A stretch of DNA of 64,000 bases from Oceanisphaera avium. Its GTDB lineage: Bacteria > Pseudomonadota > Gammaproteobacteria > Enterobacterales > Aeromonadaceae. Below are positions 28,237 to 36,923 of the stretch, piece after piece. Made by a program: the position numbers and the translations under genes. The notes under the pieces are model-generated. The model was not told the origin of the DNA and ran no database searches. It saw nothing but the letters and a program-made list of their open reading frames with translations. The DNA is taken from NCBI RefSeq assembly GCF_002157875.1, contig NZ_CP021376.1, positions 2,217,501 through 2,281,500 of the forward strand, read 5' to 3'. The first letter of the stretch is position 1, and each line of letters opens with the position of its first letter.

Positions 28237-29679
28237 TTAGCTTTCTAGGCTGCGAATACGCTGGCTAAGAATTGAAAAATCAAATACTTGGCGACTGGGT
28301 AGCATCATAAATAAGCCAGATACCATCACCGGCACTAAGCTTGCCAGTAAGAAAGATTCCAATAAAAATTCAATCTCAGCTGCTGGGGCGGGGAAGAGCC
28401 ACAAGCCAGCAACTAAGCCGGCCGCTGTACTGAGTACCGCATTATAGGCTTGATAGCGGGCGCTATAAAAACCAAAGAACACCGGGAAAGCGGCGGCACA
28501 ACATAAGAGATCGGCAAACAAAAACAGGTATAAAACACTAAAGCCCTGGGATGCTACCACCAGCACCGGAATTGAAATTAACACAATCGCCCAGCGGGAA
28601 AGGCCTAATAAGCGATTAGCGCTTACCTCGGGTAGCATACGGCGTAAGTCTACTACTAGCATGCTAGAAATACCGCTAATGGTAGAGTCGGCGCTACTCA
28701 TTATTAAGGCCAAGCCAAAGGGCAGTAAGCCAATGACAAACCACATCGGCACATTGGCTAGCAGCACATCAAACACTGCCACCGAGCCATCACCTGGCAA
28801 ATCTAGGCCAACAAAGGCTAAGCCAAATAACCCTAAGATAAAGATAAAAATAAAGCTCATCACACCACTTACAATAAAACCGTTGCGAATGGCTCTGTTG
28901 TTTTGGGCGGCAAAGATACGCTGCCAGGTGCCTTGCGAAAAAAGGCCGGTAAGCACCACGGCAATAAAGAAAGTGAGTCCAGATTTAAAGCCATTTAGAT
29001 CAAAGGGATTAAGTAGCTCGGGTGCTTTTTCTTTTAAACCGGCAATGGTGGGTCCCATGCCACCTACGGCAAACCAGCCAAACATGATCAGCAATAATAA
29101 AAACGGCAGTATCACTATCATCTGTAAACGGTCGGTAAAAATAGTAACACGCAAGCCCCCATATAGCGTGTAAAGCAAGGTGGCCACCATCACTATGGTG
29201 GCGGTCGTCCATAGGGGCACAGGCGCGATTAAATTAACCATTTTAGCAATGGCAGTTAAGCCTGCGGTGAGTGAAATAAACATATAAAACAGCATAATCA
29301 CTAACACAAAGCCGTACATGGTTTTGCCATAGCGGTGCAATACAAACTCAGTGAGTGTATGACCTTCTGGAATGAGCTCACGTAAGCGTTTACCCAAGGG
29401 GATCATCATAAAACGGGGCGCAAGTGAGCCCAGTGCATAACCGGTGACCGCGCCTATGCCACCCCAAGTGGCGGCTTCAGCTGGGCCAAATAATATCCAA
29501 GTGCCTAAGGTAGTTGCTAGCAGAGTTAGCATAGTGGCCATGCCATTTTGGCTATTACGCGCTACAACAAAGTCTTCAATTTTATCTTGTTGGCGGCGAG
29601 CGTAAAGCATGCCAGGAATGGCGAAAATAGCGGCAAATAAACACAGCCAAAACAGGGCTTGAGTGGTGGACAGTAGCAT
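28237..29679 (-). CDS. Sodium:solute symporter family transporter under TPP-riboswitch control
   Basis: A 480-residue integral membrane protein of the SSS (PanF/PutP) family with about 12-13 hydrophobic helices. GTWILFGPAEAATWGGIGA and the LFSQGTWQRIFAAQNNRAIR segment are typical of the family core. The 5' leader carries a TPP riboswitch (29786-29896), so the substrate is probably thiamin or a thiamin precursor such as a pyrimidine or thiazole moiety. PanF-like transporters have been placed in thiamin regulons by comparative genomics. The ATG is preceded by GGGAG. Transporter class is certain; substrate is inferred. Confidence 0.88.
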   Translation of the reverse strand: MLLSTTQALFWLCLFAAIFAIPGMLYARRQQDKIEDFVVARNSQNGMATMLTLLATTLGTWILFGPAEAATWGGIGAVTGYALGSLAPRFMMIPLGKRLRELIPEGHTLTEFVLHRYGKTMYGFVLVIMLFYMFISLTAGLTAIAKMVNLIAPVPLWTTATIVMVATLLYTLYGGLRVTIFTDRLQMIVILPFLLLLIMFGWFAVGGMGPTIAGLKEKAPELLNPFDLNGFKSGLTFFIAVVLTGLFSQGTWQRIFAAQNNRAIRNGFIVSGVMSFIFIFILGLFGLAFVGLDLPGDGSVAVFDVLLANVPMWFVIGLLPFGLALIMSSADSTISGISSMLVVDLRRMLPEVSANRLLGLSRWAIVLISIPVLVVASQGFSVLYLFLFADLLCCAAAFPVFFGFYSARYQAYNAVLSTAAGLVAGLWLFPAPAAEIEFLLESFLLASLVPVMVSGLFMMLPSRQVFDFSILSQRIRSLES

Positions 29680-29785
29680 GAATTCTCCCTTTGCCTATGG
29701 TTAGGCAAGCATACGTCGATCGTCAGTCATTGACGAAATATGCCGGGTAAAGACGGGCGCACAGGTGGGGAGTGAGGATCAGTCA

Positions 29786-29896
29786 GTTCCTTCCCTTCGC
29801 CGGCATTATCCGGATCAGGTTCTAAGGGTTACCGCAGCACATTGCGGAATCTCAGCCAAATGGGGTGCATATTTCGCACCTTAGGCTCCCCCAGGA
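29786..29896 (-). promoter_or_regulatory. TPP riboswitch (THI element)
   Basis: Read on the minus strand the element has the conserved GGCTGAGATT, the ACCCTTAGAACCTGATC core and the GGATAATGCCGGCGAAGGGA end that define the TPP riboswitch. It is about 105 bp upstream of the symporter ATG. A short hairpin (TTGCCT/AGGCAA) just before the ribosome site may be part of the expression platform. Confidence 0.95.
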
Positions 29897-29950
29897 ATGG
29901 TGATGAGAGTAAGAATAAATGTGGCGCTTGTCAAACCTCGGTCAAACCGT

Positions 29951-30907
29951 TTACTCGCGGCTATCGCGATCGAAAGTATTTAACGGCAGTGCGCTTGGCG
30001 CCGTTAGGCTGGTTGATGCTGTAACCTTGGTGGTGCGCTGTAGTTGCCAAGTCGCTAAGCAGGATATCAGTATGCCTGGCCAGAGTACTGCAGCGATCGG
30101 CGCACCGATAAATAGCCAAGGCAATATGGTGACTGCAGCGGGGTTGAGATAGGTGTAAGCCATGACTTTTTGCGGGCCAAGTTGAATGCTGCCAGATTGA
30201 TAGAGATACACGCTGCCTAGGGTGGCGCAAACTACTAGATAGGCCATTGCCAGTCGATCATTTGGTCCTAGGTTTTGCCACTGTAGCGGAATATCGACTA
30301 GCCAGACGGCCAGCCCCATCCAAAAAGCGCCCCCTATTAAAATGGCACAGGTCAGCACGCCGATTGAGTCACCGCGATAGAGCAACTTCATACTCAATGA
30401 ATAGGCACACATGCTGAGCACGCCCAGCAGAAATATTTTGTCGCCCTGATTAAGTTGTAGTGCCAGCGCTCGGCTTGGATTGCCTTCGAAGATCACCCAG
30501 AGTGCACCTAATATACCCAGTAAATAACTGCATGCCTGAGGGCGCCTGATAGGGGTATGTAATAGCCAAATCCCTAATACGCTGGTGATCAGGGGTACTA
30601 AGGTAAATAAGGTACTGGTGTTAAGGGCGGTAGTGGTATGCAACGCTTCAAACAGGCAGATAAAAAAAAGTGAATAGAAGAGGCTAATAATCAGCCCACG
30701 TGGCAGTGCTTGTAGCAGTTTTCGCCGTCGTTCGGCATTGATCAATATCCATGGCAGCATCAAGATTGCGGCCAGCAAAAAACGCAGTAGCGTCAGGGAG
30801 GCGGCTGGTGCTACGGGTGCCAGCTGCGCCGAAACGATAAAAGAGCCTGCAATAAATAAGGTAGCGAGTAGCACGCGTAGATGGGCGTGCCAGGTTTGCA
30901 TAAACAT
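29951..30907 (-). CDS. EamA/DMT family transporter
   Basis: A 318-residue drug/metabolite-transporter-type protein with about ten hydrophobic helices in two EamA repeats (first SFIVSAQLAPVAPAASLTLL; second beginning near LALQLNQGDKIFLLGVL). Such proteins export amino acids, nucleobases or drugs. It is 29 bp downstream of the nitroreductase gene and probably in one operon with it, divergent from a LysR regulator. The ATG at 30907 has GGGAG upstream. Confidence 0.85.
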   Translation of the reverse strand: MFMQTWHAHLRVLLATLFIAGSFIVSAQLAPVAPAASLTLLRFLLAAILMLPWILINAERRRKLLQALPRGLIISLFYSLFFICLFEALHTTTALNTSTLFTLVPLITSVLGIWLLHTPIRRPQACSYLLGILGALWVIFEGNPSRALALQLNQGDKIFLLGVLSMCAYSLSMKLLYRGDSIGVLTCAILIGGAFWMGLAVWLVDIPLQWQNLGPNDRLAMAYLVVCATLGSVYLYQSGSIQLGPQKVMAYTYLNPAAVTILPWLFIGAPIAAVLWPGILISCLATWQLQRTTKVTASTSLTAPSALPLNTFDRDSRE

Positions 30908-30936
30908 GTTTATCTCCCGTCGAGCAGATTGCCGGA

Positions 30937-31545
30937 TTAGCGCTGGAAACGGTCCAGCACTCTCACGTTTTCCAATGAGAGTTGTCCGGGTTTAGGCCAA
31001 GCCTCTTTGTCCGCTTTTCCTATGGTCAGCATCATGCCGATCACATGATCGTCGGGTAGCTGAATAAGCTCGCTAACACGCTGGGTATCAAAACCTATCA
31101 TGGGGCAGCTGTCGTAACCCATGGCTTTGGCTGCCAACATGGCAGTTTGCGCGACCATACCAATCGAGCGGATTGCTTCGTCACGTTGTAGCTGTGGCTG
31201 ATTTTCATAGAAGCCGTGAATCATCGACAGCATAAGATCTTGAGTGTTGATGGGCGCATGGCGCCAGCAATGTGCAGGGTTACGCTGCCAAGCTTGAGTA
31301 TCGGCACACAGCACCAGTAATAGCGATGCATCGGTGACCTGAGCTTGATCTCCTGCGGCTTTACGCATTTCGGCGCGTAATTGTCGATCCTCAACCTGCA
31401 CGAAGCGCCAATGTTGTAGATTAAAGGCTGTGGGAGCCTGCAGCATGCAGTGAAACAATTGTTTAATATCGGCTTCAGGCATGATGAAGGCCGCATCATA
31501 TTGTTTGACTGCGCGGCGAGTCGTGATGGCGTCGAGAGTGTGCAT
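30937..31545 (-). CDS. Nitroreductase family protein
   Basis: A 202-residue FMN-dependent nitroreductase-type protein. The N-terminus TTRRAVKQYD is the FMN-phosphate-binding segment, and APTAFNLQHWRFV, followed later by YDSCPMIGFD, are typical of the family. It may reduce nitroaromatics, quinones or other electrophiles. It leads a likely operon with the EamA transporter. The start has AAGGAAA upstream. Confidence 0.88.
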   Translation of the reverse strand: MHTLDAITTRRAVKQYDAAFIMPEADIKQLFHCMLQAPTAFNLQHWRFVQVEDRQLRAEMRKAAGDQAQVTDASLLLVLCADTQAWQRNPAHCWRHAPINTQDLMLSMIHGFYENQPQLQRDEAIRSIGMVAQTAMLAAKAMGYDSCPMIGFDTQRVSELIQLPDDHVIGMMLTIGKADKEAWPKPGQLSLENVRVLDRFQR

Positions 31546-31628
31546 TATATATTTCCTTTGATTTGTTCAACTTGGTGGTCAGTATTTCATATGCAAAAAT
31601 GAAGAAAAATAGAATGGAAGCAGAGATT

Positions 31629-32537
31629 ATGTGCACAAATGCACAGGTGGATGACTGGCACGAGATCTATATTGCTTATCAGGTAGCCAGATTGGGCTCG
31701 TTAAGTGCGGCTGCCCTACAGCTTGATGTGCATCACAGCACGGTATTACGCCGCATTAATGCGCTGGAAACTAAGCTAGGTACTCGTCTATTTCACCGCC
31801 ATGCGCGTGGTTATGTTGCGACCGAAGCAGGGCAAGCCTTATTGGCCGCCGCCGCGCAGGCCGAAGAGACTTTTAGCCGGATGCGCGCCCAAGTTGGCGA
31901 GAGTGAAGCCCTCGCGGGCACGCTGATCCTCACCTCAGTCAATAATCTGGTTCCCTACATAACACCACTGCTGGCGGAGTTTCAGCGGCAACACCCGAAT
32001 ATACGCCTGGAATACTCCGCCGATCGCCGAGTGTATCGGCTAGAGCATGGTGAGGCGCATGTCGGCATACGGTCGGGATCTCGACCGCAAGAGCTGGATT
32101 ATGTTGTTCAGCACCTTACTCGGGCTGCAGGAACTTTATATGCCAGTCGTGAATATGTACGCCGTTATGGCTGTATTACTTCGCTCGAGGACATCGCTGG
32201 GCATCGTTTTATCGGCACCACTAGCCCACGTCCTGGCAGTTTATTTATGCGCTGGATGGAGAAGAAGGTGTTACCGGAGCAGATTTTTTATCGGGTGCAG
32301 GATTTCACCGGTTTTATTCCAGCTCTGGAGGCGGGAATGGGTTGTGGCCCTTTGAGTTGTTGGCAGGCAAGTTTGGCTTCTGGGCTGCAGCCCTTGTTGC
32401 CACCACCGGAAAGTTGGACCCATGATCTGTGGTTAACAAGCCACGGTGATCTGCATAGCACCGCTAAGGTGCAGGCCTTTACGCAGTTTATCAAAAGCAG
32501 CATTGCCGAGCGCCAGAGTGACTTTATACCGGTTTAA
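31629..32537 (+). CDS. LysR family transcriptional regulator
   Basis: A roughly 302-residue LysR-type regulator. The N-terminal helix-turn-helix reads LGSLSAAALQLDVHHSTVLR, and a periplasmic-binding-like effector domain follows. Three starts are possible (31614, 31629 and the far 31563); 31629 leaves a normal 12-residue lead to the HTH. It is divergent from the nitroreductase-EamA pair and likely regulates it. The intervening region has TTCAT-N7-ATGAA at about 31586-31602, a possible binding site. Confidence 0.85.
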   Translation: MCTNAQVDDWHEIYIAYQVARLGSLSAAALQLDVHHSTVLRRINALETKLGTRLFHRHARGYVATEAGQALLAAAAQAEETFSRMRAQVGESEALAGTLILTSVNNLVPYITPLLAEFQRQHPNIRLEYSADRRVYRLEHGEAHVGIRSGSRPQELDYVVQHLTRAAGTLYASREYVRRYGCITSLEDIAGHRFIGTTSPRPGSLFMRWMEKKVLPEQIFYRVQDFTGFIPALEAGMGCGPLSCWQASLASGLQPLLPPPESWTHDLWLTSHGDLHSTAKVQAFTQFIKSSIAERQSDFIPV

Positions 32538-33646: not shown

Positions 33647-33821
33647 TAAGGCTTAATCTCCATTGCATCAAGGCCACCATTATCTACTGCTGGCGCCAAT
33701 TAACCAAATTTCCCTAAGGCAAGAGTGAAGGGCAAAGAGAGGTGTGTAACCAAGATAGCTCGCCCTAGTTCATGATTATCAGCTCACACCTTGCTCTTTT
33801 TATGTTATGGTCTAGGCCGTG

Positions 33822-33906
33822 ACACGGGGTGTCTGGCAGCACATCTGCCTGGCTGAGATAACACCCGTCGAACCTGATCCAGTTCATACTGGCGAAGGGA
33901 TGTCAG
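33822..33906 (+). promoter_or_regulatory. TPP riboswitch (THI element) before the SDR-LLM operon
   Basis: The core GGCTGAGATAACACCC, GAACCTGATCCAGTTCATAC and TGGCGAAGGGA are all present on the plus strand. The SDR start is 60 bp downstream. Within that gap CCTCT (33944-33948) can pair with AGAGG (33956-33960), which is the ribosome site of the SDR gene, and CCTTCGCC (33938-33945) can pair with GGCGAAGG inside the riboswitch. This suggests translational control. Confidence 0.96.
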
Positions 33907-33965
33907 CCTTTCGGCTCACGGCAATCTTGCCCATCTGCCTTCGCCTCTGACTTTTAGAGGTAGCC

Positions 33966-34760
33966 ATGCAACAGCATCATATTCATACCCCCTCAGCCCC
34001 AACATTTGACCAACAAGTGGTATTAGTCACCGGCGGCGCGCGCGGCCTAGGCGAGCATTTAGTACGCGCCTTTTTGCGTGAAGGCGCCAAAGTCGTAATT
34101 AACTATCTTAAAAGCGCCCAAGCTGCTGAGCAATTAGCAAACGACTATCCAAATCAAGCGCTGGCATTGCAAGCGGATGTCACTGATGCCGATGCGGTAG
34201 GGGCATTATTTGCTAAAGCCCATGCCCATTTTGGGCAGCCTATTACTACTGTGATTAATAATGCCCTTCCGGCTTTTTCCTTTAACGGTGATGCTCGTGA
34301 AAATGCTGAGCAGTTAAGCTGGAATAATGTACACCAGCAGTTTGAAGGTATCGTAAAAGGTGCGCTAAACACCACACAGGCCGCATTGTCAGGCATGCGT
34401 GAAGCCGGTTTTGGCCGCATTGTTAACGTGGGCACTAACTTATTCCAAAACCCAGTGGTGCCGTATCACGACTACACTGCTGCTAAAGCGGCGTTACTCT
34501 CGTTAACGCGCACGCTGTCTCAAGACTTAGGCCCTGATCAAATTACCGTAAATATGGTATCTGGTGGTTTATTACGCACCACAGATGCCTCGGCTGCCAC
34601 CCCAGAAGCGGTGTTTGATTACATTGCCGCTAATACACCGCTGCGCCGTGTAACCACACCTGCAGAGTTTGCTGATGCGATTTTATTTTTTGCCTCTCCT
34701 TGGTCGCGTTCCGTAACTGGCCAAAACTTGGTAGTAGATGGCGGCTTGGTGAAAAACTAA
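33966..34760 (+). CDS. Short-chain dehydrogenase/reductase of a TPP-regulated operon
   Basis: A 264-residue SDR. The nucleotide-binding motif is VTGGARGLGEHL, and the active-site Tyr-Lys is in YTAAKAALLSL. The usual catalytic Ser position (NISS in relatives) reads NVGT, so Thr seems to replace Ser. The gene lies directly under a TPP riboswitch and its stop overlaps the ATG of the LLM gene by one base (TAATG). SDR genes with THI elements have been noted in thiamin regulons (named oarX, from memory), but the reaction is not known to me. Confidence 0.88.
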   Translation: MQQHHIHTPSAPTFDQQVVLVTGGARGLGEHLVRAFLREGAKVVINYLKSAQAAEQLANDYPNQALALQADVTDADAVGALFAKAHAHFGQPITTVINNALPAFSFNGDARENAEQLSWNNVHQQFEGIVKGALNTTQAALSGMREAGFGRIVNVGTNLFQNPVVPYHDYTAAKAALLSLTRTLSQDLGPDQITVNMVSGGLLRTTDASAATPEAVFDYIAANTPLRRVTTPAEFADAILFFASPWSRSVTGQNLVVDGGLVKN

Positions 34761-36067
34761 TGGCAGCTAACAATCAAGCATCACGCATGATGCACCTTAA
34801 TTTATTTTTAATGGGGTGCGGTCATCATAAAGGCGCTTGGCGCCATCCTAAGTCGGCGGTAGAGCGCTTAGGAGACATTGATTATTACGAAGAAATGGCG
34901 CAAATCGCCGAGCGCGGTAAGTTAGATGCCGTCTTTTTTGCCGACGGCCAAGCGGCAGTAAACGTAGCTGACGGCACGCCTTTTTTCCTTGAGCCATTAA
35001 CCGCCATGGCGGCCATGAGCCGGGCTACTGAAAAAATTGGCTTTATTAGTACCGTTTCTAGTACCTTTTACACTCCCTTTCATGCCGCGCGTATGGTGGC
35101 GTCTTTAGACCATATTTCTAAGGGACGTATGGGCTGGAACGTTGTAACTTCTATGTTTGATATGGAAGCGCGTAACCATAACTATGAAGCAATGCCGGTG
35201 CATGCCGAGCGCTATCGCCGAGCCGATGAGTTTGTAGATGCGGTATTAAAGCTATGGGACTCGTGGGATGCAGATGCGCTTACCCTAGATAGATTTGGCC
35301 ATTATGCCGATCCTGCTAAAGTGAAGGCCATTAACCACCATGGCGAATTCTTCTTAGTAGATGGCCCCTTAAATGTGCCGCGCCCGCCCCAAGGGCATCC
35401 GGTATTATTTCAAGCAGGAGCCTCTGATCAAGGGCGAGAGCTCGCCGCACGCCGCGCCGAAGCTATTTATGCCGTAGCCTATGATCTCACCGCCGCCCAA
35501 GAGTACTACCGAGATATTAAGCGTCGAGTAAAAGCTGCCGGTCGCGATGTTGACGTGCCCATTATGCCCGGCTTAGTAACCTATGTTGCTGCCACCGAAG
35601 AAGAAGCAAAAGCTAAGCAACGTGAGCTAGATGAAATGCTGCCCGTGGCCGCTTCTTTGCGTCAATTGGGGTTATTTATTGAGCGCGACTGCTCCGATTG
35701 GGATCTGGATTCGCCCATGCCAGCGTTGCCGCCGCTTGCAGAGTTTACTGGGCCTAAAGGGCGCTATGCCACTATTTTGCGCATTATTGAAACCGAGCAA
35801 CCCACGGTGCGCGAATTATTGGGTCGCTTAGCCGCTGGGGGTGGCCATTGCACTATGGTCGGTACACCAACACAAATTGCCGACCAAATGGAGCTGTGGT
35901 TTAACAACGAAGGTGCCGATGGTTTTAATTTAATGCCGCCTTCGCTGCCTTATAGCTTAAATGATTTTGTAGAGCAGGTTGTGCCTGAGCTACAGCGCCG
36001 CGGTCTGTTTCGCCAAGACTATGAAACCGACACCCTGCGCGGTCACTTAGGCCTAGCTAAGCCCTAA
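34760..36067 (+). CDS. LLM-class flavin-dependent monooxygenase, NtaA/SnaA/DszA type
   Basis: A 435-residue luciferase-like TIM-barrel flavin monooxygenase using reduced FMN. Typical segments are LNLFLMGCGHHKGAWRHP, AERGKLDAVFFADGQ, GRMGWNVVTSMFDMEARN and HPVLFQAGASDQGRELAA. Relatives in this branch include nitrilotriacetate, pristinamycin and dibenzothiophene-sulfone monooxygenases, which act on C-N or C-S containing compounds. The start at 34760 is fixed by translational coupling to the SDR. Its FMNH2 supply is not encoded next to it. A role in oxidising a thiamin-derived thiazole or related compound is inference. Confidence 0.88.
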   Translation: MAANNQASRMMHLNLFLMGCGHHKGAWRHPKSAVERLGDIDYYEEMAQIAERGKLDAVFFADGQAAVNVADGTPFFLEPLTAMAAMSRATEKIGFISTVSSTFYTPFHAARMVASLDHISKGRMGWNVVTSMFDMEARNHNYEAMPVHAERYRRADEFVDAVLKLWDSWDADALTLDRFGHYADPAKVKAINHHGEFFLVDGPLNVPRPPQGHPVLFQAGASDQGRELAARRAEAIYAVAYDLTAAQEYYRDIKRRVKAAGRDVDVPIMPGLVTYVAATEEEAKAKQRELDEMLPVAASLRQLGLFIERDCSDWDLDSPMPALPPLAEFTGPKGRYATILRIIETEQPTVRELLGRLAAGGGHCTMVGTPTQIADQMELWFNNEGADGFNLMPPSLPYSLNDFVEQVVPELQRRGLFRQDYETDTLRGHLGLAKP

Positions 36068-36092: not shown

Positions 36093-36126
36093 AAGCCCAT
36101 CACTTTAGTGATGGGCTTTTTTATTG
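36093..36126 (+). terminator. Terminator of the SDR-LLM operon
   Basis: AAGCCCATCAC/GTGATGGGCTT hairpin followed by TTTTTTATT. Confidence 0.88.
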
Positions 36127-36236: not shown

Positions 36237-36923
36237 ATGAAAATTTTAATGATCATGACCTCACACGCCAAGCTGGGAGATACCGGTAAAGATACCGGCC
36301 TGTGGTTAGAGGAATTTGCCGCGCCTTATTATGTATTTAAAGATGCGGGCGCCAAGCTTACACTCGCTACCCCAAAAGGCGGTAGACCACCTGTGGATCC
36401 CAATAGCTTAGGCCCTGATGCGCTAACACCCGCTACCGAGCGCTTAGCGCAAGATGCAGCGGCGAACGCCGAGTTTTCCAATACCTTGGCACTAAACAGT
36501 GTGTCAGCTAACGATTTTGATGGCATTTTTTACCCCGGTGGGCACGGCCCGTTATGGGATTTAGCCAATAACCCCGACTCGGCGCGGTTAATCTCCCAGA
36601 TGTTAAGCCAACATAAGCCAGTGGCCGCGGTATGTCATGGGCCAGGAGTATTTCGCCAAGTTAACAATGCGCAAGGCCAGTCTTGGGTACTGGGTAAACG
36701 AGTTACGGGTTTTAGTAACAGTGAAGAAGCCGCGGCAGGCTTAACTGAAGTGGTGCCGTTTTTAGTAGAAGATATGCTTAAAGAGCAGGGCGGTCATTAT
36801 TATAAAAGTGACGACTGGCAACCGCATGTAGAAACAGATGGCTTGCTTATTACTGGGCAAAACCCTGCTTCTTCTGCTGCCACAGCGCAGGCGCTATTAG
36901 ATAAACTGGGTGCTAAGTCTTAA
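36237..36923 (+). CDS. DJ-1/PfpI family (type 1 glutamine amidotransferase-like) protein
   Basis: A 228-residue DJ-1/PfpI superfamily member. The nucleophile elbow is AVCHGPGVF with Cys near residue 134; a Glu early in the chain (WLEEFAAPYYVF) is placed as in chaperone/glyoxalase-type HchA relatives. The IFYPGGHGPLWDL segment is also typical. Related proteins are described as glyoxalase III, deglycase or chaperones. An AAGGAG site precedes the ATG. It lies after the terminator of the TPP operon, so it is probably separate. Confidence 0.85.
   Translation: MKILMIMTSHAKLGDTGKDTGLWLEEFAAPYYVFKDAGAKLTLATPKGGRPPVDPNSLGPDALTPATERLAQDAAANAEFSNTLALNSVSANDFDGIFYPGGHGPLWDLANNPDSARLISQMLSQHKPVAAVCHGPGVFRQVNNAQGQSWVLGKRVTGFSNSEEAAAGLTEVVPFLVEDMLKEQGGHYYKSDDWQPHVETDGLLITGQNPASSAATAQALLDKLGAKS

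Follow-up and report, generated by a model that had tools for sequence, protein, structure and literature searches.

A thiamin pyrophosphate riboswitch ahead of a reductase-monooxygenase gene pair in Oceanisphaera avium: a candidate module for the salvage of a thiamin vitamer

In the genome of Oceanisphaera avium, two adjacent genes coding for a short-chain dehydrogenase/reductase (SDR) and a luciferase-like flavin monooxygenase (LLM) were found directly downstream of a thiamin pyrophosphate (TPP) riboswitch. The analysed DNA, hereafter the window, was a stretch of 64,000 nucleotides of contig NZ_CP021376.1 (positions 2,217,501 to 2,281,500). A second TPP riboswitch was located in the same window ahead of a gene for a sodium:solute symporter of the SSF family. 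We proposed that these genes constitute a TPP-repressed module for the salvage of a thiamin vitamer, namely one carrying the pyrimidine half, and this reading is held with about even confidence.

Both aptamers exceeded the Rfam gathering score of RF00059, which is 54.3 bits (Table 1). The stop codon of the SDR gene overlapped the start codon of the LLM gene in a TAATG motif. In the profile searches, the best NCBIfam match of the SDR was NF006393 (434.3 bits against a cut-off of 292), the LLM scored 534.7 bits on TIGR03860, the NtaA/DmoA family (curated cut-off of 279.7), and the symporter scored 77.5 bits on PF00474 (22.8). Neither the SDR nor the LLM qualified as a classical thi gene. Hence, a sequence-only reading of the same DNA was borne out in noting a TPP riboswitch ahead of the pair, the coupling of an SDR gene with an NtaA-type monooxygenase gene, the lack of a classical thiamin-synthesis gene in the pair and a second riboswitch-controlled transporter nearby.

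Table 1. Features of the window discussed in the text (position 1 is the first letter of the window).
Feature	Position	Strand	Basis or remark
TPP riboswitch aptamer (THI element), shortened P3 arm	33815-33917	+	Rfam RF00059, 66.8 bits, E 6e-11; match along the whole model
Putative anti-sequestor, aptamer strand GGCGAAGG	33891-33898	+	exact complement CCTTCGCC at 33938-33945
Putative hairpin sequestering the Shine-Dalgarno (SD) sequence, CCTCT...AGAGG	33944-33960	+	SD AGAGG at 33956-33960; folding
SDR oxidoreductase, 264 aa, NF006393/PRK08642 family	33966-34760	+	PF13561/PF00106
LLM flavin monooxygenase, 435 aa, NtaA/DmoA family	34760-36067	+	PF00296, TIGR03860
Intrinsic-terminator-like stem downstream of the LLM gene	36093-36118	+	11 base pairs, with a T run
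Second TPP riboswitch aptamer, upstream of the SSF gene	29775-29902	-	RF00059, 75.2 bits
SSF sodium:solute symporter, ThiV-like candidate pyrimidine importer	28237-29679	-	PF00474

The LLM was used as a query in a scan of species-representative genomes, in which 119 relatives were confirmed and the best 80 loci were kept. Three further loci (hits H1, H5 and H6) were taken from 128 plasmid records, 123 of which were under 60% identity. Of 11 loci submitted to Rfam, 10 showed a TPP riboswitch ahead of the SDR-LLM pair. A covariance model, R1, was built from 17 TPP sequences found in this analysis and run on the 83 loci, 16 stretches of the own genus, locus L205 and 20 loci of a Rhodococcus clade. 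The LLM tree was composed of 101 rows, the 20 Rhodococcus-clade loci having been left out of 121. The window LLM fell in a single group of 39 rows (SH-aLRT 100), many of them near relatives, that spanned Gammaproteobacteria, Alphaproteobacteria, Actinomycetota and Bacillota. A TPP riboswitch was detected upstream in all 39 rows, which represented 38 distinct sequences (L009 being identical to L177); 11 of the rows had contributed to R1 and 28 had not. The riboswitch stood directly before the SDR-LLM pair in 37 rows (in L022, before the LLM gene alone) and likewise in L205. It headed a longer run in L024, where its Rfam score of 53.3 bits was slightly below the gathering score. The Rhodococcus-clade loci kept out of the tree also carried the riboswitch (20/20). 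Among the other LLM loci (L027-L088) it was detected in 5 of 62, four above the Rfam threshold and one (L053) below; several of these 62 stretches were short, and divergent riboswitches may escape R1.

The two genes behaved as a unit. Among 38 adjacent SDR-LLM pairs examined, 24 shared a stop/start overlap of the TAATG or TGATG type, 11 had a candidate LLM start 2-5 positions past the SDR stop, and three (L008, L014 and L205) had neither. In Dietzia cinnamea, the SDR (L107/L204) and the LLM (L022) were encoded on separate contigs, each directly behind its own TPP riboswitch. The catalytic set of classical SDR enzymes is Ser-Tyr-Lys. That set was not found complete in this SDR: Tyr170 and Lys174 were kept, and Thr157 occupied what we take to be, from the 13-residue spacing to the tyrosine, the position of the catalytic serine. 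None of the three residues varied among the 39 aligned rows. Further, the longer run of Kineococcus sp. TRM81007 (L024, 1417-7287) consisted of a TPP riboswitch, a thiO-like FAD oxidoreductase gene, a thiS-like frame (recognised by eye), thiG and thiF, and it ended with a zinc alcohol dehydrogenase gene followed by the LLM gene, with no SDR gene in the run. We read the zinc enzyme as replacing the SDR, one alcohol/aldehyde dehydrogenase standing in for another, so that the partner step is probably an alcohol/aldehyde redox reaction.

The symporter was also linked to the pair. Within the own genus, the SSF protein was found in 18 of 23 genomes (E <= 1e-100) and the LLM in 17 (E <= 1e-140); in the eighteenth genome (G092), the SDR and residues 5-172 of the LLM (82% identical) were located at a contig end. 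Hence, the symporter and the pair occurred together in 18 of 23 genomes, and neither was found in the other five at the thresholds used. If the two labels were independent, an 18/5 split of this kind would arise with a probability of 1 in 33,649, uncorrected for relatedness. The SSF gene was present in 15 of the 16 genus stretches, the sixteenth ending first, and all 15 had a TPP riboswitch on the SSF side. In Granulosicoccus (L010), the SSF gene and the SDR-LLM pair were divergent neighbours with a TPP riboswitch on each, and the same arrangement, with a 55% identical symporter, was found in another gammaproteobacterial family (L205/L206). ThiV of SAR11, an SSF protein under TPP riboswitch control, is presented as a likely importer of 4-amino-5-hydroxymethyl-2-methylpyrimidine (HMP) in the cited part of PMC11452348. 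The proposal of an uptake-plus-conversion module, made from the sequence alone, was thus supported by the riboswitch before each unit, by the co-occurrence and by the divergent neighbours elsewhere.

The leaders of the pair were compared in 21 gammaproteobacterial loci. Nineteen belonged to the own genus, and two (L009 and L177) were identical in sequence. Both GGCGAAGG and its exact complement CCTTCGCC were present in 20 of the 21 leaders, and in the same 20 a putative CCTC...GAGG hairpin, entered from CCTTCGCC, covered the SD sequence. Its arms read CCTCT/AGAGG in the window and CCTCA/TGAGG in L010. The sole exception was L205, in which a different hairpin over the SD sequence was recognised by eye. 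In Mesobacillus (L008), a terminator-like stem with a T run was seen, also by eye, downstream of the aptamer. The gammaproteobacterial layout looks like that of a TPP-OFF switch; if this putative polarity is right, expression should rise when TPP is short.

Further, the thiamin genes of 11 genomes holding the LLM were compared (the own genome and those of L009-L015, L018, L022 and L024). Full-length ThiG was found in 10 of the 11, full-length ThiC in four. A holder that has ThiG and lacks ThiC is able to synthesise the thiazole and has to import either the pyrimidine or thiamin. The sole holder without ThiG, Pseudochrobactrum (G004), had a TPP-controlled ThiM (L114; Pfam assignment on the near-identical L092). 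Of 37 genomes in the Rhodococcus clade, 30 contained the LLM and none contained ThiC.

A second, separate LLM clade was resolved in the tree (SH-aLRT 97-100). Its LLM gene ended TPP-ykoF-thiX-thiZ-thiY runs in Devosia, two species of Tianweitania and Pseudaminobacter (loci L035, L047, L060 and L063, 2.7-7.3 kb; L042 had no detected riboswitch). In Rhizobium (L053), a weaker TPP riboswitch was followed by a 29-residue YkoF remnant and then by the LLM gene only. ThiC was absent from all five second-clade genomes. In the cited part of PMC10881298, ThiXYZ and YkoF are classed under pyrimidine or B1 transport. The pyrimidine half is therefore favoured over the thiazole half, not proved, because ThiG was kept, ThiC was often missing and LLM relatives stood beside transporters of the pyrimidine type.

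It was proposed that at low TPP both riboswitches would permit expression, and that the SSF symporter would import a thiamin breakdown product consisting of the pyrimidine half with a group other than hydroxyl on its 5-CH2 carbon. Entry might first occur through a TPP-controlled TonB receptor encoded elsewhere in the genome. The LLM, supplied with FMNH2 by a general flavin reductase and with O2, would oxygenate the CH2 group and cleave the CH2-N or CH2-S bond, yielding 4-amino-2-methylpyrimidine-5-carbaldehyde. The SDR would then reduce this aldehyde to HMP with NAD(P)H, and ThiD would phosphorylate HMP into the ordinary pathway. Candidate leaving groups are an S-conjugate, a sulfonate, a substituted amine or the whole oxidised vitamin. 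Of this scheme, the riboswitches, the pairing of the genes, their conservation and their co-occurrence were established computationally; the OFF polarity, the choice of the pyrimidine half, the aldehyde intermediate, the reductive role of the SDR and the nature of the imported compound are inferred.

This chemistry is suggested by analogy. By sequence, both proteins were clearly homologous to LLM and SDR enzymes of solved structure, and the closest solved homologues of the LLM were MoxC/YtnJ (E ~3e-93), then nitrilotriacetate monooxygenase and DszA and, further off, riboflavin lyase. In the cited part of PMC10863075, CmoJ, which is homologous to YxeK and DszA, forms an aldehyde by breaking a C-S bond, and the aldehyde oxygen derives from O2; in that of PMC9706529, YxeK converts N-acetyl-2-succinocysteine to oxaloacetate and N-acetylcysteine. 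CmoJ-type chemistry on a pyrimidinyl-CH2-X compound would give the pyrimidine aldehyde, for which the SDR would be the natural enzyme toward HMP. A second, O2-dependent route to HMP, in which the LLM oxidatively frees the pyrimidine aldehyde and the SDR or a zinc alcohol dehydrogenase reduces it, is given somewhat less than an even chance. We tentatively suggest as its source a breakdown product beyond the reach of hydrolytic salvage, e.g. a thioether, a sulfonate or an N-substituted pyrimidinylmethyl compound.

Two alternatives concern the target of the enzymes. Salvage on the thiazole side, in which an oxidised or side-chain-modified thiazole (thiazole acetaldehyde or acetate, or carboxythiazole) would be returned to hydroxyethylthiazole (HET), had been put forward in the sequence-only reading. 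It would agree with the attack of LLM enzymes on C-S bonds, with an SDR that could reduce thiazole acetaldehyde and with the Kineococcus run, which joins the LLM gene with thiG and thiF. However, the 10 holders with full-length ThiG would not need thiazole from outside, ThiC was missing more often, the ThiG-less Pseudochrobactrum has its ThiM, and the LLM-linked transporters were of the SSF and ThiXYZ/YkoF types, i.e. of pyrimidine or B1 transport. The thiazole target is thus disfavoured, and we regard it as quite unlikely. Cleavage of an intact thiamin-like molecule, such as thiochrome, oxidised thiamin or an antivitamin, would either release both halves or serve detoxification. Riboflavin lyase (5w48) is homologous to the LLM (E 2.5e-64), TPP control would also suit the removal of inhibitory thiamin analogues, and uptake by the symporter followed by aldehyde reduction would be compatible with such cleavage; nevertheless, the module has no gene for a thiazole kinase, and detoxification alone leaves the tight link to a TPP-controlled importer unexplained. 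This explanation was considered unlikely, with a small share of the probability.

The other two alternatives place the pair outside thiamin salvage. The named members of the NtaA/DmoA family are mostly catabolic, and the sequence-only reading had allowed for a catabolic route, in which thiamin or HMP would serve as a source of carbon, nitrogen or sulfur. This was not favoured: 20 of 21 gammaproteobacterial leaders have a layout that looks TPP-OFF, the stem past the Mesobacillus aptamer is terminator-like, and the operon holds no further catabolic gene. Such a role is very improbable. The NF006393 family is named 3-oxoacyl-acyl carrier protein (ACP) reductase, which would fit housekeeping oxidoreductases of fatty-acid or sulfur metabolism, e.g. 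a FabG-like enzyme, that had acquired a TPP riboswitch. That explanation is hardly credible, since the pair follows a TPP riboswitch not only in two classes of proteobacteria but also in Actinomycetota and Bacillota. In addition, each of the genes separated in Dietzia cinnamea has a TPP riboswitch to itself, and the pair is linked to an importer.

Several results weighed against pyrimidine salvage by a TPP-repressed module. The module was patchy: the LLM was found (E <= 1e-140) in three of 397 genomes drawn from the phylum, and in a survey of the family in 17 of 75 genomes, all of the own genus, with 0 of 52 in other genera. In the actinomycete, Pseudochrobactrum and Mesobacillus loci, the stretches flanking the pair yielded no SSF homologue. 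The Kineococcus LLM gene lay inside a thiazole-synthesis operon, behind the riboswitch that scored below the gathering threshold. Equilibrium folding energies alone did not reveal the switch: the SD sequence was paired both in the unconstrained minimum-energy fold (-60.9 kcal/mol) and when the aptamer was imposed (-54.3 kcal/mol), and it was 35% open when the alternative pairing was imposed (-54.2 kcal/mol).

The distribution of thiamin genes held further points of this kind. TenA, the known aminopyrimidine route, was encoded in 10 of the 11 holders, including the own genome, where it lay outside the operon; the module would therefore have to serve a different vitamer. ThiC was found in all 23 own-genus genomes, whether the module was present or not, and also in G003, G009 and G424. 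Hence, the module does not simply take the place of ThiC. Seven Rhodococcus-clade genomes without an LLM hit also lacked ThiC. In the order of one second-clade genome (G517), 118 of 249 genomes had no ThiC anyway, which makes the absence from 5/5 second-clade genomes weak evidence. Some holders were drafts or metagenome bins (G002 and G008), in which absence is less certain. The loss of thiC, taken up as a proof of pyrimidine salvage, was downgraded to suggestive on the own-genus, Rhodococcus and order counts.

The whole genome of O. avium, a single 2.9 Mb contig, contained five TPP riboswitches, including the two in the window. The remaining three stood upstream of thiC, of thiD and of a gene whose product contains a TonB-receptor plug domain. 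The best-scoring one of the genome (G000:C1:1402285-1402391, L001) preceded the TonB-dependent receptor gene, which is a candidate outer-membrane partner of the symporter.

The genes surrounding the module were considered as possible parts of it. Those for a nitroreductase, an EamA exporter and a LysR regulator (29951-32537), located between the SSF gene and pyrC, were rejected; outside the window they were detected at >100 bits only in L187, L190 and L192 among the 16 genus stretches, plus L193. A DJ-1/ThiJ-like gene (36237-36923) was rejected as an operon member, as it lay beyond the terminator-like stem, and it was not found at >100 bits in eight of the 16 genus stretches. That stem was one of seven terminator-like sites matching the consensus in the region, where 3.4 were expected (sd 2.3).

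Additional observations were made in other genomes. In Dietzia alimentaria, a ThiC remnant of ~70 residues with a TGA codon (G005:C26:100458-100667) was found alongside the SDR-LLM pair. Two of the 30 Rhodococcus-clade LLM hits contained an internal TGA (G016:C43:24435-25706 and G020:C150:6575-7852), a possible gene decay. The 433 kb Pseudochrobactrum plasmid NZ_CP075348.1 (W02; L092) carried three TPP riboswitches, one before an SDR-LLM pair and one before genes for ThiM and a ThiE-like protein (the latter recognised by eye); by its predicted genes, it is a case of plasmid-borne thiamin acquisition.

Many bacteria without ThiC depend on thiamin pyrimidines made by others. A TPP-controlled pair of an oxygenase and a reductase with its own importer, occurring in several phyla, suggests that both a vitamer and an enzyme step have so far gone unrecognised. 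The names in use, 3-oxoacyl-ACP reductase and nitrilotriacetate monooxygenase, mask the proposed role of both genes. If that role is true, ThiC-less bacteria, among them the 30 members of the Rhodococcus clade (of 37) whose genomes bear the LLM, could draw pyrimidine from an unrecognised vitamer pool.

Several known systems resemble parts of the proposed module. It shares with RF00059-regulated thiamin acquisition operons a full aptamer above the gathering score, a layout that looks OFF-type and the control of an uptake gene, and differs in the SDR-LLM pair placed under control. Early comparative studies of THI elements reportedly included oarX, an oxoacyl-ACP-reductase-like gene, among those under thiamin control, in which case the SDR half may already have been published. 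Among the open-licence papers searched, none was found that links a TPP riboswitch with oarX, an LLM, an SDR or nitrilotriacetate monooxygenase. The surroundings of the window SDR are those of a TPP riboswitch operon rather than of a fab locus. Riboflavin lyase, a catabolic enzyme, is likewise an LLM acting on a vitamin and is homologous to the window protein over residues 25-430 (PDB 5w48). It acts on a different vitamin and is less similar to the window LLM than YtnJ/MoxC.

CmoJ, YxeK, DszA and YtnJ/MoxC are homologous LLM monooxygenases (DszA and YtnJ/MoxC were matched directly), and CmoJ shares with the proposed reaction the release of an aldehyde by C-S cleavage. CmoJ and YxeK differ in serving the salvage or breakdown of cysteine adducts, and the cited parts of PMC10863075 and PMC9706529 make no mention of thiamin control. 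ThiV of SAR11, according to the cited part of PMC11452348, belongs to the same transporter family and has a TPP riboswitch upstream, whereas the window symporter is tied to an SDR-LLM pair; the likeness considered here is one of family and riboswitch.

The salvage of N-formyl-4-amino-5-aminomethyl-2-methylpyrimidine (FAMP) and of the aminopyrimidine runs via ThiXYZ, YlmB and TenA. Its aim, like that proposed here, is a TPP-controlled recovery of HMP from the breakdown products of thiamin. No TenA or YlmB homologue was found in the operon, which consists of the SDR and LLM genes only (YlmB was not searched genome-wide). In the cited parts of PMC10470507 and PMC10881298, pyrimidine vitamers are salvaged through TenA, and TenA_E and FAMP appear in the former. 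The known salvage proceeds by hydrolysis, whereas oxidative cleavage followed by reduction was proposed here. TPP-controlled vitamer salvage is a known kind of system, in which the enzymes and probably the vitamer proposed here appear to be new.

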